Origin: Nanoarchaeota archaeon
Lineage (GTDB): Archaea > EX4484-52 > LFW-46
Reading direction: 5' to 3'
Assembly (NCBI GenBank): GCA_018897155.1
Contig: JAHILE010000003.1
Span: forward strand, 1-42,986
DNA length: 42,986 nucleotides
Made by a program: the position numbers and the translations under genes. A model generated the notes under the pieces. It was not told the DNA's origin. It saw only the letters and a program-made list of their open reading frames with translations, and made no database searches. Shown in pieces: positions 11,642-40,815 of this stretch (positions are counted from its first letter, which is position 1; every line of letters starts with the position of its first letter).

Positions 11642-11697
11642 AAAAATCCGTTCGTTCCGCATTACTAACCATTATTCGCGGAACTCTCGGCTTTTTT
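11642..11697. repeat. Dispersed hairpin element, copy A
   Basis: Read on the minus strand it is AAAAAAGCCGAGAG, then an internal hairpin with arms TTCCGC and GCGGAA, then CGAACGGATTTTT. The two outer blocks recur at 39734-39761 and 40572-40597. It begins 30 nt after the nob1 stop and ends 34 nt before tRNA-Ala. Confidence 0.7.
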
Positions 11698-11731: not shown

Positions 11732-11879
11732 GGGCCTGTGGTCTAACGGTATGACGCTGCCATGGCACAAGGTCTTGAAAATCCAAGATTTTCAAGCTTT
11801 CCAAACTCTTTCGAGTTTGAAAATTCCTCAGAACCTTATATATTGGCAGAGGCTCCGCGTTCGATTCGCGGCAGGTCCA
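11732..11879 (+). tRNA. tRNA-Ala(GGC) with a 76-nt intron
   Basis: The acceptor stem GGGCCTG pairs with CAGGTCC and contains G3·U70, the alanine identity pair, with A73 as discriminator. The D arm is GTCT-AACGGTA-TGAC, the anticodon stem is CTGCC/GGCAG, and the loop reads A-T-GGC-A, giving anticodon GGC. The T arm is CCGCG-TTCGATT-CGCGG. CCA is not encoded. Exon 1 is 11732-11767 and exon 2 about 11844-11879; the intron between follows position 37, the usual archaeal site. AAGG/CCTT pairing at the intron ends supplies the central helix for the bulge-helix-bulge that the splicing endonuclease cuts. The intron holds two perfect hairpins. The last 44 nt overlap the end of the dus gene on the other strand. 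Confidence 0.9.
11768..11843 (+). repeat. tRNA-Ala intron with tandem hairpins
   Basis: Hairpin 1 is CTTGAAAATC-CAA-GATTTTCAAG (11774-11796) and hairpin 2 is CAAACTC-TTTC-GAGTTTG (11802-11819), both perfect. They are joined through TTTCAAGCTTT. The same order of blocks (GTCTTGAAA, TTTCAAGCTTT, a second hairpin, TTGAAAAT) occurs in RNase P RNA at 31934-31989. Confidence 0.75.
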
Positions 11880-22175: not shown

Positions 22176-22361
22176 ATGAACGAACGTGCATGCAGGGTCT
22201 GCAAAAGGCTCGTTGAAGAAGGAAACGAATGCGACGTATGCAAATCAACCGATCTCACAAACAACTGGAAAGGCGTAATAATGATTTTTAATGCCGATTC
22301 CGAAGTTGCGAAAAAGGCGGGAATAGCGGTGCCTGGAAAATACGCTATGCAGGTTATGTGA
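22176..22361 (+). CDS. spt4: Transcription elongation factor Spt4 (RpoE'')
   Basis: Spt4 pairs with Spt5 and increases RNA polymerase processivity. The 61-residue protein has the zinc site CRVCKRLV…CDVCKS, followed by WKGVIMIFNADSEVAKKAGIAVPGKYAMQV, which matches the family closely. An AGGTGTC Shine-Dalgarno precedes the ATG. It keeps the standard archaeal position after rpo7. Confidence 0.95.
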   Translation: MNERACRVCKRLVEEGNECDVCKSTDLTNNWKGVIMIFNADSEVAKKAGIAVPGKYAMQVM

Positions 22362-27571: not shown

Positions 27572-27796
27572 ATGCCAACTGTTGATATGAATCTTTGTAT
27601 GAAATGCTTTGCATGTGTCGGTGCGTGCCCGAATGATGCGATTTCTGATGCGCCCGAAGGCCCGAAATTTGACAATAAGAAATGCAAAAAATCATACCGC
27701 TCAGACGGCAAGCTTTTGAATCCAAAAAGTATTGCAAATGATTCAAAATGCGGAATTTGCGCCGAAATGTGCCCTGCAAGCGCGATAAAAATTTGA
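27572..27796 (+). CDS. 2[4Fe-4S] ferredoxin
   Basis: The start at 27572 follows AGGGGATATTCT; the longer frame back to 27425 is antisense to fen1. The 74-residue protein has eight Cys: C9, C12, C15, C19 in CMKCFACVGACP, and C38, C60, C63, C67 with CGICAEMCP. Each set can hold one [4Fe-4S] cluster, with a ~20-residue Lys-rich insertion (NKKCKKSYRSDGKLLNPKS) between C38 and the second CxxC. It is a soluble electron carrier. The redox partner is not visible in the neighbourhood. Confidence 0.9.
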   Translation: MPTVDMNLCMKCFACVGACPNDAISDAPEGPKFDNKKCKKSYRSDGKLLNPKSIANDSKCGICAEMCPASAIKI

Positions 27797-28578: not shown

Positions 28579-28902
28579 CTTAAATCAGTGCACAAAACGT
28601 TTATAGGGATCTATGAAGACATATCAAGGCATGCAAGCTTTAAATCATCTCGTTGGCACTCGAAGCTTTAAAGCAAAGCTTTAAATACTCCAGTAACCAT
28701 TTAAGAGTAGTCATTACATTAAATGAGCAACTCAACAGTTGCATAAGCCAGTGCAACTCAAGAGGAATATATAAACAACACCAAGAGAACAAGCTTATAT
28801 ACTCGTAGTGACAAATAAAAAGGAAGTAATAAAAATCCTGCTCATCAGCTTCGAGAAAACGAGGCTTTTAAACAGGGTAAATTAAAAATTTAGGTGTTAA
28901 AA
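28579..28902. other. Spacer with repeated AAGCTTTAAA motifs
   Basis: No gene can be supported in these 324 nt. The block 28634-28690 has three copies of AAGCTTTAAA and the stretch AAATCATCTCGTT at 28642-28654, which recurs at 40522-40534 next to the dispersed hairpin element. The last ~60 nt include AGGTGTTAAAAATG, the ribosome-binding context of the next gene. A small hairpin CTTCGAGAAAACGAGG lies near 28850. An open frame of 22 codons at 28612 is not convincing. Confidence 0.5.
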
Positions 28903-31647: not shown

Positions 31648-32081
31648 TGGTGTGGAAGGATTGCTATGGTTTTTGTGTGTCTTGTCGCATGCATGCGTTC
31701 ATAGCGCATGTTAGCGATTATTCATATCAAAGATTGAGGAAAGTCCCCCCACGGATGCAGAGATGCATTTAATCCCAGAAAACTAGGGCGCCGGGAGGCG
31801 CGGCAACGTATTAGAAACGATACAGAAGGCAGTTAAGGATGAATGTTTATGACGTTTCTGCCATTCTGATGAAACGTAACGTCCATGCGTGCAAGTCGAA
31901 CGACGCGCGCGAAGCAATTCGCGTCCTCAGAAAGTCTTGAAACCTTGCGAAAGTGAGTGTTTCAAGCTTTTCAACCCATGGTTGAAAATGAGGGAGTCTA
32001 ATGCGATAAAATCTATCAGCACCGGCAATTGCGCCGGATGTAAAGACGGATTGAACAAAAGGGGGCTTACTCTCCACACCA
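31648..32081 (+). ncRNA. rnpB: RNase P RNA
   Basis: This is the catalytic RNA that trims tRNA 5' leaders. The conserved GAGGAAAGTCCCCCCA is at 31736-31751 and an AGAAACGATACAGAA-type core element is at 31811-31825. The CR-V-like ACAAAAGGGGGCTTAC lies at 32055-32070. P1 is GGTGTGGA (31649-31656) paired with TCCACACC (32073-32080). A TTTAAATAC TATA box ~25 nt upstream supports the 5' end. The length of ~434 nt is long for an archaeal RNase P RNA. Part of the excess is an internal two-hairpin segment at 31934-31989 that resembles the tRNA-Ala intron. A T-rich tract (GGCTTTTTTTCTTTT) follows ~40 nt after the 3' end. Confidence 0.9.
31934..31989 (+). repeat. Tandem hairpins within RNase P RNA, like the tRNA-Ala intron
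   Basis: CTTGAAAC … GTTTCAAG (31936-31943 / 31959-31966) is followed through TTTCAAGCTTT by TTTTCAACC-CAT-GGTTGAAAA (31968-31988). The order and core sequences match 11772-11824 in the tRNA-Ala intron. Confidence 0.65.
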
Positions 32082-34722: not shown

Positions 34723-35075
34723 GATGTTTCATCTCCTTCCTTATTTTTATCTTTTCAGAATTCATTTCACGCAAGACACCTAATTTTATAAAAACAAAGC
34801 CAATGCTATCTGTTTTGTCTTTTTCAGCCGAAGGCTGAAAAGCTTGCCGCAAGGCATGATTTCTCTTGCGCGCCTTCCTCATTCTTTATTCAAAAATGAT
34901 TCAGACGGCTCAAAAAAAACCGCGAAAGCGAAAAACAAGATAGTGCATACCTCGTTTTAAAAAGTGAATTTTGTGAAAGCATAACTGCGATGAATCGTCA
35001 TTACTATTAAAGACTAATTATTTAAAGCTATGTTTCACAAACGTTTTTTTATACAACCTTCACCAATAGTATACT
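34723..35075. other. Spacer with tandem hairpins and a plus-strand promoter
   Basis: TTTTCAGCC-GAA-GGCTGAAAA (34821-34841) is a perfect hairpin followed by GCTTGCCGCAAGGC, again with an AAGCTT junction as in the dispersed elements. A TATA box TTTTTTTATAC at 35044-35054 lies 27 nt before the ATG at 35076. No further gene is supported. Confidence 0.5.
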
Positions 35076-38203: not shown

Positions 38204-40435
38204 CTACTCAAACCCGATTTTTTTGAACTTCTCGCCCTTGTGCAAAGATTCAAAATCCGCAATAGAAAGCACAAACGGCCTGTTTGTTTCGCTAATCCTT
38301 TTTGCCGCCATCTGCATAAGCGCGTTTTTAACTCTCACATTTGCTGCAACAAAATATGCGCCCTCGTTCGCCACATTACCCTCAAGCATGGCGCGCTCAA
38401 GGCTTGACGCAAGAACGGCTTTCAGCTGCCTGTCTTTTTTTGAAAGAATCCAAACACTGTCAGCCCGATTAACTGCCCATCCTTCACTCCTGAAAAGCTT
38501 TTCTGCTGCAACGGCAAATTCCGCGGCGTTGATTTCCTCACGCGGCATCCCGAAAGTCCTTGAAAATGCTGCAGCACCTTTGTTTGTCAAAAAGTAGAAA
38601 ATAGAATTTTGGCGGTACACTTTTGCGCTGCGGAATCCAAGATATCCGTCAGATACCAAGCGGTTCGCATTCTTCTTGAATGTGCTGCCCGACATCGAAA
38701 TTCCGCCGTAAATCTCTGATGTTGCGGATGCATCGAATCTGCCAAGAACGCGCATAATCTTAAGGCATGCGTCAGGCAAATCGATTTTCCCGGCATCCTT
38801 TTGCACTTGCGGTTCGCGTATTTCCAACTGCTCGCGCGGAATTTGCGGCGCAGTCGGTGAAGAAACATCCTCTTTTTCTTCCATAATTTCAACAGGCTCT
38901 GTTTCGGCATGCTTCGGCTTTTCATGATGATGCTTTTTTCTTTTCATATGGTCCCTTATGCGCGAGGCCTCAGACAGCGGCGGCTCAATCACAGTTTCTT
39001 CAGGAAGCTCCGGCGCAATTTGCGCAACCATTTCATCGGTAATTGTGCCTTTATTCACTTTCGCATGCGGGAATCGTATAAGGAATGGATGCGGAAAACT
39101 AAGGCGGCGCGCAAGCAAAAAGCCGTCGCCCACAGGAAGCTGGCGCAGATAAGTGCCCTCTGTCCGGTAATCGAGGCCAAGCATGCTGCATGCGTCCTGA
39201 ATGTCTGAAGAATACTGCGTGTCAAGCCCGAGGTTCATGTAAATATGAGTGCTGGTATTTCCAAGAGCAGGATAGCTAATAAGGGACGGGTGCTGGTCAA
39301 CATAAATTATGCCCATTCCGAGCTCTCTTACCTCGCGGAAAACAAGGTCAATAACGCTTTCAGTACCCATCTTTTTCGACTTCTCGCGATTCAGGACATG
39401 GTGTGCCTCCTCCAAAACAATCACGCCCTGCAGCTGCTCCTTTGTGTTTCTTACAATCAGCCAATCACGGATCCACTGCAGCAGGATTTCAATGAAAAAG
39501 GTTTTGTCGTTCGTTGCAAGAGAATCAAGCTCAAGAATAGTAATTTTATTGCCTTCGAAAAAACTCGATGGAAGAACACCTTCGTTTGTGTCAAAAATCT
39601 CGCCCGTTTCACGGAAACAAAGCGATTCAAGCGGCCTCTGTGCAGTCACGATCCAATTCCGCTCTCTTGCCGAGTTTTTATCGCTTTCAAGCTCGTCAAG
39701 CAGATATTTTACGCCGCGCAATTGCGGAAAATCAAATCCGTTCGCTCCGCTCTCGGCTTTTCGATTTGCAATCGAAAATGATTTTGGGTTCTTAAAAACC
39801 GTATCAAGAGCCTTTAATATGATGTGCCTCCCGCCGCCCAAAAGCCAGTAAGCATGGTCAAAAATCTCTGCAAACTCCTTTATCCACTGCGAAACTTCAA
39901 CGCCTGCCGGCGGGCGCAGCGGATTGAACTTGAAAGGCGAAAGATTTCTTCCGACAGTGAAAATCTGGACACGGTCCTTTAATTCCGGAATATTTATCAA
40001 ATCGCGGTAATTTCTTTTTGAGAAATCAAATATCAGAACAGGCACACTTTTTTCCGAAAGCTGATTGACAAGGCTGTGAACCACATTAGTTTTTCCATAT
40101 CCCGAGGAGCCGAAAATACCTATATGAGTCAAGAACATACTGCTGTCAAGATTAAAAGGATAAAGAGCCCGCTTTCCGTAAAGCGCAGTGCCTATAAAAA
40201 CATCGCCCTTTGCTGCTGTTTCGCGCGACGGCGCCTCAATCAGCACGCTGTCTTTTAAGCTTTCGTCGGCAAACGCTGCTGCTTTGACCGCATCAAGCAT
40301 TTCTATTACGCGCTTTTTTGTCTCTTCATCGCCCAAAAGATACGCCTGCTCAATTTTGAGCGCGTTATCTTTACCAAGAACAGGAACGAGCTTTTTTATC
40401 TCGTTTGCAATTTCGATGCGGACAAAATCAGCCAT
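38204..40435 (-). CDS. HerA/FtsK-like ATPase with C-terminal winged helix
   Basis: This 743-residue P-loop ATPase belongs to the HerA/VirB4 group (COG0433-like). Walker A is GSSGYGKTN at 109-117 and Walker B is GVIVLEEAHHVL near 337-348, with the LEEAH form typical of HerA. Further motifs are IIYVDQHPSLI and NLGLDTQYSSDIQDACSMLG. A charged linker (~480-560) leads to a winged helix (PDACLKIMRVLGRFDASATS). The end, ~630-743, is a small α/β domain (FAVAAEKLFRSEGWAVNRAD…) that could be a restriction-endonuclease-like fold. Residues ~217-236 are encoded by a copy of the dispersed hairpin element. DNA translocation or repair is likely; NurA is absent. Confidence 0.85.
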   Translation of the reverse strand: MADFVRIEIANEIKKLVPVLGKDNALKIEQAYLLGDEETKKRVIEMLDAVKAAAFADESLKDSVLIEAPSRETAAKGDVFIGTALYGKRALYPFNLDSSMFLTHIGIFGSSGYGKTNVVHSLVNQLSEKSVPVLIFDFSKRNYRDLINIPELKDRVQIFTVGRNLSPFKFNPLRPPAGVEVSQWIKEFAEIFDHAYWLLGGGRHIILKALDTVFKNPKSFSIANRKAESGANGFDFPQLRGVKYLLDELESDKNSARERNWIVTAQRPLESLCFRETGEIFDTNEGVLPSSFFEGNKITILELDSLATNDKTFFIEILLQWIRDWLIVRNTKEQLQGVIVLEEAHHVLNREKSKKMGTESVIDLVFREVRELGMGIIYVDQHPSLISYPALGNTSTHIYMNLGLDTQYSSDIQDACSMLGLDYRTEGTYLRQLPVGDGFLLARRLSFPHPFLIRFPHAKVNKGTITDEMVAQIAPELPEETVIEPPLSEASRIRDHMKRKKHHHEKPKHAETEPVEIMEEKEDVSSPTAPQIPREQLEIREPQVQKDAGKIDLPDACLKIMRVLGRFDASATSEIYGGISMSGSTFKKNANRLVSDGYLGFRSAKVYRQNSIFYFLTNKGAAAFSRTFGMPREEINAAEFAVAAEKLFRSEGWAVNRADSVWILSKKDRQLKAVLASSLERAMLEGNVANEGAYFVAANVRVKNALMQMAAKRISETNRPFVLSIADFESLHKGEKFKKIGFE
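39734..39778. repeat. Dispersed hairpin element, copy B, in frame inside the HerA-like gene
   Basis: On the coding strand it is TTTTCGATT-GCA-AATCGAAAA followed by AAAAGCCGAGAG-CGGAG-CGAACGGATTT. The hairpin is a perfect 9-bp one. The element is translated as about SFSIANRKAESGANGFDF without disturbing the frame. Confidence 0.75.
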
Positions 40436-40815
40436 TTTTTATCATTCTCCATTTTTAGCCATTCACAATATTCATTGGGTTTGAAAGCCTTGAACGAAGT
40501 GAAAGGATTTTATTTGGATAAAAATCATCTCGTTCGCTGACAGCGAATTCGAAGCTTTTGAACATTCGTTCAAAAAGCCGAGAGCGAACGGATTTTTAAC
40601 CATTTACCTCTGCATTGGGTTAAAATCACAATATTACAAAAGACATAACAGTAGGACTTAAGACATATTGTGGATAGAAGTATTTAAAACTTCGCCAACG
40701 CAAATGCGAAGTTTTAAAGCCAAGAGCGTAGCGAATGTATTTAAACATTTTAAATCTTTGCGTTGTTTAAAACAGATAAGCTCAAAAGCCTATAGCGAAT
40801 TAAATAAGGAATAGT
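40436..40815. other. Spacer rich in nested inverted repeats, with promoter of the HerA-like gene
   Basis: Besides element copy C (40521-40597), the spacer holds AAAACTTCGC … GCGAAGTTTT (about 40686-40718) and a CAACGCAAA/TTTGCGTTG pair enclosing it. There is also a minus-strand TATA box (TTTTAAATAC at ~40679-40688) and the 27-nt motif at 40639-40665 shared with 41606-41632. No gene is supported. Confidence 0.5.
40521..40597. repeat. Dispersed hairpin element, copy C
   Basis: AAAATCATCT leads into TTCGCT-GAC-AGCGAA, then GCTTTTGAAC-ATTC-GTTCAAAAAGC (40554-40578), then AAAAAGCCGAGAGCGAACGG and ATTTTT (to 40597). The final blocks match copies A and B. The initial AAATCATCTCGTT also occurs at 28642-28654. 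Confidence 0.75.

Follow-up and report, generated by a model that had tools for sequence, protein, structure and literature searches.

How does a short palindromic sequence that also lies between genes come to stand inside the reading frame of a HerA-like ATPase in an archaeon? The initial annotation of the window, by which we mean the whole stretch of 42,986 nucleotides analyzed here, had proposed a dispersed hairpin element with three copies, one of them inserted in frame in the ATPase gene. We recovered the repeat at all three places (11648-11692 and 39738-39758 on the minus strand, and 40576-40591 on the plus strand), and the three-copy pattern, found three times in the real window, had no occurrence in 100 dinucleotide shuffles of it. 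A search of the 1.43-Mb genome with the pattern AGCCGAGAG-N(0-30)-CGAACGG, which had been suggested as a check, returned nine matches versus none for the reversed pattern, and when up to one mismatch was allowed the two shared blocks taken singly matched 52 times (AGCCGAGAGCG) and 56 times (GCGAACGGATTT), against seven matches for each reversed control. The proposal would have failed had the blocks been no more common than expected, but they are far above their reversed controls. One might still see in them AT-rich palindromes produced by chance or composition without any family relation, and the modules are short (24-53 nt); however, the counts given above already refute this, and the near absence of the module from other archaea stands against it as well, so that we give it practically no credence. 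The window contains more copies than the three reported, with others beginning at 28641, 28832, 27688, 34838, 40483, 40521 and 40715 (Table 1).

Table 1. Element copies and host gene in the window, and genes elsewhere in the genome that carry an in-frame copy.
Feature	Position in window	Strand	Insert	Basis or comparison
HerA-like ATPase, 743 aa, DUF87/HerA central domain	38204..40435	-		Pfam
In-frame insertion in the ATPase gene, flanked by TTT at each end and made up of the palindrome TCGATT-GC-AAATCGA and a hairpin module	39734..39775	-	42 nt	orthologue alignments
L module of the ATPase copy, AAAAGCCGAGAGCGGAGCGAACGGATTTG	39733..39761	-		covariance model R1, 43.6 bits
Long-form L module, inner stem TTCCGC/GCGGAA, spacer between nob1 and tRNA gene	11643..11695	-		R1, 40.7 bits
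Long-form copy, nob1-side hairpin, TTTTCGCCC...GGCGAAAA	11613..11647	+		sequence, fold
Long-form copy, tRNA-side palindrome, TTTTTTGTTTGC...GCAAACAAAAAA	11692..11731	+		sequence, fold
ATPase 5' leader of nested copies; AAAAATGGAGAATGATAAAAA before the start codon, GGAG being Shine-Dalgarno-like	40436..40620	-		sequence, fold
L module, GCCTTGAACGAAGTGAAAGGA subtype, lying within the loop of the hairpin at the start codon	40483..40511	+		R1, 35.3 bits
L module, TTCGAG/CGAGATGA subtype	40521..40559	-		R1, 25.7 bits
L module with inner stem lost (third copy of the initial annotation); palindrome TTTTGAACATTCGTTCAAAA just upstream	40573..40596	+		R1, 35.3 bits
Decayed L module	40715..40743	+		R1, 23.8 bits
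L module, TTCGAG subtype	28641..28670	-		R1, 31.8 bits
Weaker L module	28832..28869	-		R1, 20.1 bits, E 0.01
Sister-subtype module, AAAGCTTG-stem-(C/T)ATGATTT	27688..27717	-		R1, 17.6 bits, E 0.05
Sister-subtype module, AAAGCTTG-stem-CATGATTT	34838..34863	+		pattern match; covariance model E 0.15
TopA-like topoisomerase			42 nt	absent in genus-mate
MetRS (tRNA_bind domain)			34+20 = 54 nt	absent in genus-mate
Trm9-like methyltransferase			57 nt	absent in genus-mate
Molybdopterin-family oxidoreductase			57 nt	absent in genus-mate
Aminotransferase			57 nt	absent in genus-mate
RlmH (SPOUT_MTase)			66 nt	absent in genus-mate
Glycosyltransferase			90 nt	absent in genus-mate
UvrC			108 nt	absent in genus-mate
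KsgA-like methyltransferase, contig C28			double insert, ragged DNA ends	genus-mate without copy

To place the segment in the ATPase, we aligned the protein with ten orthologues (41-77% identity), one, L071, from a second genome of the same genus (hereafter the genus-mate) and nine others. None of the ten has the residues in question; relative to these orthologues the segment is an insertion. Its size had been overestimated at about 18 codons (residues 217-236); it comprises exactly 42 nt, or 14 codons, from about residue 221, the coordinates in Table 1 assuming placement after the upstream TTT, and in the alignment against the genus-mate orthologue it leaves the frame intact, as had been claimed. 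In the predicted ATPase product, the peptide SIANRKAESGANGFDFPQLR spans the insert. In the AlphaFold2 model the insert falls in a loop of low confidence (pLDDT <50 at residues 223-231) that links two helices, and it is predicted to be flexible.

The two shared blocks pair with each other and so form the outer arms of a single hairpin. This conserved hairpin, the L module, reads AAAAGC-NNN-GAG-stem-loop-stem'-CGA-NNN-GATTTT and is preceded by a second, variable palindrome, one unit consisting of the palindrome TTTT-p-loop-p'-AAAA and the conserved hairpin GC-NNN-GAG-stem-CGA-NNN-GA. We compared 86 distinct L modules in an alignment anchored from the two ends only. They start with AAAAGC and end with GATTTT, or close variants of these, with a G.A mismatch after the A/T run in 84/86 and a tandem motif of which GA is present in 74/86 and AG in 79/86. 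The outer stem occurs as CCG/CGG, CCT/AGG, CTT/ATG or CTG/CAG, and the inner stem differs in nearly every copy; both remain paired more often than in shuffled sequences (78% versus 56% for the outer stem, 77% versus 65% for the inner), although these figures lean towards structure because the hits came from a covariance model that contains it. That the copies constitute a family, and that the stems stay paired while both of their strands change, is observed directly. A sister subtype, AAAGCTTG-N(5-30)-CATGATTT, lacks the GA motif and has 28 copies in the genome studied and 45 in the genus-mate, with no match to the reversed pattern. The GA/AG motif invites a reading as a kink-turn, which inspection ruled out because the internal loop is symmetrical and has no three-nucleotide bulge. 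The module is not enriched in open frames (4.09 of six open, versus 4.18 in shuffles).

The variable palindrome is a regular part of the unit: a perfect palindrome of at least six bases ending at the A-run precedes 67/86 modules, compared to about 14 in a cross-copy control in which the left half was taken from another copy. In the window, the initial annotation had placed a hairpin before the shared part in two of the three copies, which is correct for those two, but the third (11642) also has such a palindrome (GTTTGC...GCAAAC), besides the further hairpin between its shared blocks, which we confirm. Palindromes whose arms vary widely while keeping their complementarity might be made locally, by hairpin-primed or template-switching replication errors at T-tracts and without any mobile element, and the left arm in some copies (L140, L141, L143 and C47) repeats host sequence that is seen again past the module. 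However, the lengths of the A-run and the T-run barely correlate (r = 0.12), and GC-NNN-GAG..CGA-NNN-GA is conserved at more than 100 unrelated places, so that local templates cannot be the source of the module; we hold this explanation to be quite improbable. A related idea, a host-templated palindrome with its left arm copied from the target, fits only a few copies and was not adopted because of the same weak correlation of run lengths.

The comparison with Rickettsia palindromic elements, made when the ATPase copy was first noticed, holds for behavior, in that nine further genes carry an in-frame internal copy that the genus-mate, with which they were compared along with other genomes, does not have (Table 1; gene names are from Pfam, except that MetRS, UvrC and Trm9 were named by reading of alignments). 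Insertion relative to orthologues and retention of the frame are direct observations in these comparisons, and so is the preference for T-rich sites, with a T-run of at least three at 8/8 reconstructed insertion sites and likewise at the majority of the genus-mate sites that are unoccupied. As the element itself starts and ends with T-runs, a target duplication of 4-5 bp cannot be distinguished from clean insertion. Intragenic copies occur in both orientations. We found no second genomic copy of MetRS, UvrC, the topoisomerase or RlmH in the same genome, and the KsgA-like protein has a paralogue there (39-48% identical) at C15:4505-4849.

In an intergenic long form of about 110 nt, two palindromes enclose an L module whose inner stem has 7 bp and whose conserved loop is ATGGTTCATAA or close to it. 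The long form is common in the genus-mate, and its placement there is observed to be strongly oriented: on the strand complementary to L, a start codon immediately follows the terminal hairpin in 17/21 long copies, versus 0/21 on the other side. The loop of this hairpin, on the same strand, is usually Shine-Dalgarno-like (GGAG, GGTGA or similar), and we infer that it acts as a ribosome-binding site. Genes with such a leader include those of the ribosomal proteins uL14 and L30 and of an Spt4-like protein, all identified by reading the sequences. Before the other genes of the window no start-codon hairpin of this kind was seen; the Spt4-like gene at 22176 is without the element, and the leader of its genus-mate orthologue has a long copy. 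The tRNA gene beside the long copy in the window (11732-11879) contains a 76-nt intron and was called Ala-GGC by ARAGORN with introns allowed; the intron holds hairpins resembling the element family, which suggests an insertion there too. The sole Rfam match in the window is the archaeal RNase P RNA (RF00373) at 31704-32080.

A structured regulatory RNA could likewise account for the strong orientation bias seen in the long form. It would be a 5' leader that regulates translation through a Shine-Dalgarno sequence folded into the loop of its last hairpin; the tandem GA might serve as a protein-binding site, and the short copies would be relics. In its favor, the non-canonical G.A and GA/AG pairs are conserved and the stems covary, and one orthologous pair (L231, L130) keeps the leader in both genomes with differing stem letters. 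But short copies lie in either orientation within unrelated genes, orthologues in the genome studied of six leader-bearing genus-mate genes have no element in front, no common theme was seen among the genes served, and Rfam 15 gave no match above the gathering score for the element in the window or at ten loci with long copies. We consider a regulatory RNA unlikely as the origin of the family. A bolder combination, in which mobile modules both enter proteins in frame and install a ready-made translation-initiation hairpin before dozens of genes, ribosomal protein genes among them, as a shared translational control device of this archaeon, seems to us equally unlikely at present.

Within the genome studied, the covariance model (E up to 1) found at least 106 copies of the L module; this is a lower bound, because scoring covered only 150 out of 1,019 candidates, and one or more strong copies are known outside the count. 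Under stricter settings the model counts 86 copies in this genome and 87 in the genus-mate (LFW-46). Farther away, it detects one to five modules in each of 11 genomes of a related family (f7), three weak matches in one genome of another (f4), and a single weak match (E 0.03) among 27 archaea outside the order. An exact-pattern scan of 84,980 genomes returned 40 stretches, of which 35 are in the same archaeal lineage (in LFW-46 and the archaeal assemblies CSMAG_334, CSMAG_1486 and RS_3_1) and five are single matches in unrelated bacteria, a number near the chance estimate of about four; no Rickettsia was among the matches. RS_3_1 bears the name Candidatus Aenigmatarchaeota, and as agreeing contig numbers and positions group the order with it, the window is inferred to belong to Aenigmatarchaeota as well. 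The best reading of these distributions is that the element family is archaeal and lineage-specific. A viral origin was also considered and set aside, as the exact pattern had no match in viral contigs. In f7 genomes (L140, L141, L143 and L145) modules occupy the 3' end of a gene encoding a protein with the C-terminal sequence EAFLAQ(V/L)xAL, and this gene end also bears a copy in the genome studied (C29:26988); some of these modules are tandem repeats that duplicate the gene tail.

Several features are signs of recent movement. Copies are seen nested within the loops of other copies, the ATPase leader being one example, and in the genus-mate identical cassettes of a module plus a hairpin stand at unrelated loci with different neighbors. 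Four contigs of the genome studied (C21, C25, C26 and C46) terminate in one and the same hairpin array of about 140 bp, as expected of a repeat at which assembly breaks, and parts of it terminate two more (the start of C2 and the end of C23). This array lies between putative ends of another repeat (TTTCAGTTTGGGTTTAATACCCCGCAGC ... TGCGCAAATTTTAGGCAATTTCTTTA), of which a minimal version is found near a Y1 transposase gene at C46:15444. Simple copy-and-paste does not account for the variable palindrome, which differs among copies that have the module in common.

The first candidate for a mobilizer is the IS200/IS605 Y1 transposase, which would move REP/BIME- or PATE-type elements in trans, as single strands, to places beside short targets and without duplication. 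Three Y1 genes are present in the genome studied and one in the genus-mate, the hairpins are imperfect, the nested copies of the genus-mate fit clean insertion, and PATEs are known from the archaeon Haloquadratum (PMC3119063). Nevertheless, no module lies directly at any of the three Y1 genes, the nearest strong one being about 950 bp from the gene on C46, which led us to reject Y1 as a flanking partner; the GTAG tag is absent; and the presence of Y1 shows no clear correlation with element number across genomes, most f7 genomes, which are incomplete, having modules and no Y1. We regard mobilization by Y1 as possible but doubtful, and no transposase linked to the element was found.

We favor, with good though not full confidence, the explanation that the copies belong to one family of short palindromes, mobile but not autonomous, which survive in genes where the frame is kept and in leaders that remain translatable. 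Transposition itself and the enzyme responsible are inferred, movement being deduced from comparison and not observed. Under such a scheme, a unit would insert at T-rich sites and leave T-runs on both flanks, and later copies may then insert into the loops of earlier ones. Most copies lie between genes. The few in coding sequence would persist because they add a whole number of codons and are read in a frame free of stops, the host protein thereby gaining a segment of 14-36 residues. The long intergenic form abuts the start codon of the downstream gene with its terminal hairpin, whose loop presents a Shine-Dalgarno-like sequence, and long-form insertions would in this way keep the gene translatable.

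Protein-coding palindromes are best known from Rickettsia, and we found no report of archaeal ones in the open literature, subscription papers being outside our scope. The present case would be a second and unrelated one, in a DPANN-type (symbiont-type) archaeon, and would establish the in-frame entry of short palindromes into conserved genes as a recurring process. The genome also offers ten natural experiments on the tolerance of inserts, in MetRS, UvrC, topoisomerase, RlmH and others, and the hairpins at start codons open to test the idea that a mobile repeat may bring its own ribosome-binding site.

Among known systems, Rickettsia palindromic elements (RPEs) are many short palindromes that lie in frame in unrelated conserved genes as well as between genes, with no transposase of their own known (PMC10969869, PMC3733652), and the archaeal element is likewise palindromic, hairpin-folding, present in many copies and in frame in genes whose orthologues lack the insert (the HerA-like gene and nine others). 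The CGTC tag reported at one palindrome end of R. conorii RPE sequences, including RPE-4 and RPE-6 (PMC3733652), is absent from the 86 distinct modules; the archaeal element, unlike RPEs, consists of two hairpins with a conserved G.A and tandem GA/AG mismatches, lies at T-rich sites and has a long form with a start-codon hairpin. The likeness to Rickettsia stands for behavior, but, with the end tag missing and the element confined to one archaeal lineage, it is an analogy only. GTAG REPs and BIMEs are also numerous dispersed short hairpins that combine into arrays, show alternative complementary residues in their stems and in some cases lie within genes (PMC3733652, PMC2817692), and the archaeal element agrees with them in each of these respects, whereas its 86-module consensus has no GTAG tag and no Y1/RAYT gene is flanked by a module.

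Archaeal repeats provide the other comparison. MITEs of Sulfolobus and other archaea are, like this element, non-autonomous, multicopy and short (PMC10969869); a MITE has terminal inverted repeats in common with a parent transposon, usually together with a target duplication. The element described here shows no constant terminal inverted repeat, only the outer AAAA/TTTT and a variable palindrome, no clear target duplication, although its T-runs could hide one, and no parent transposon that we could find short of a full IS survey. In Haloquadratum walsbyi, PATEs are transposase-free and palindromic, make no target duplication, and have palindromes that match the ends of IS605 elements in the same genome, and SMR-A repeats of about 110 bp insert into the palindromes of other elements with no known mobilizer (PMC3119063). 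Our element resembles both as an archaeal, transposase-free repeat, and PATEs also in being palindromic. In contrast to PATEs, we found no confident module match at the ends of the three Y1 loci (ends of TnpB-only elements were not included), and in-frame intragenic copies are not described for PATE or SMR-A in the passages considered. Lacking the CGTC and GTAG tags, and any IS605-like parent that we could find, the element is not filed as a member of the RPE, REP or PATE groups, even though it works like them. Its behavior is closest to that of the Rickettsia palindromic elements and other intragenic REPs (PMC10969869, PMC3733652), and its setting closest to that of the transposase-free repeats of Haloquadratum.
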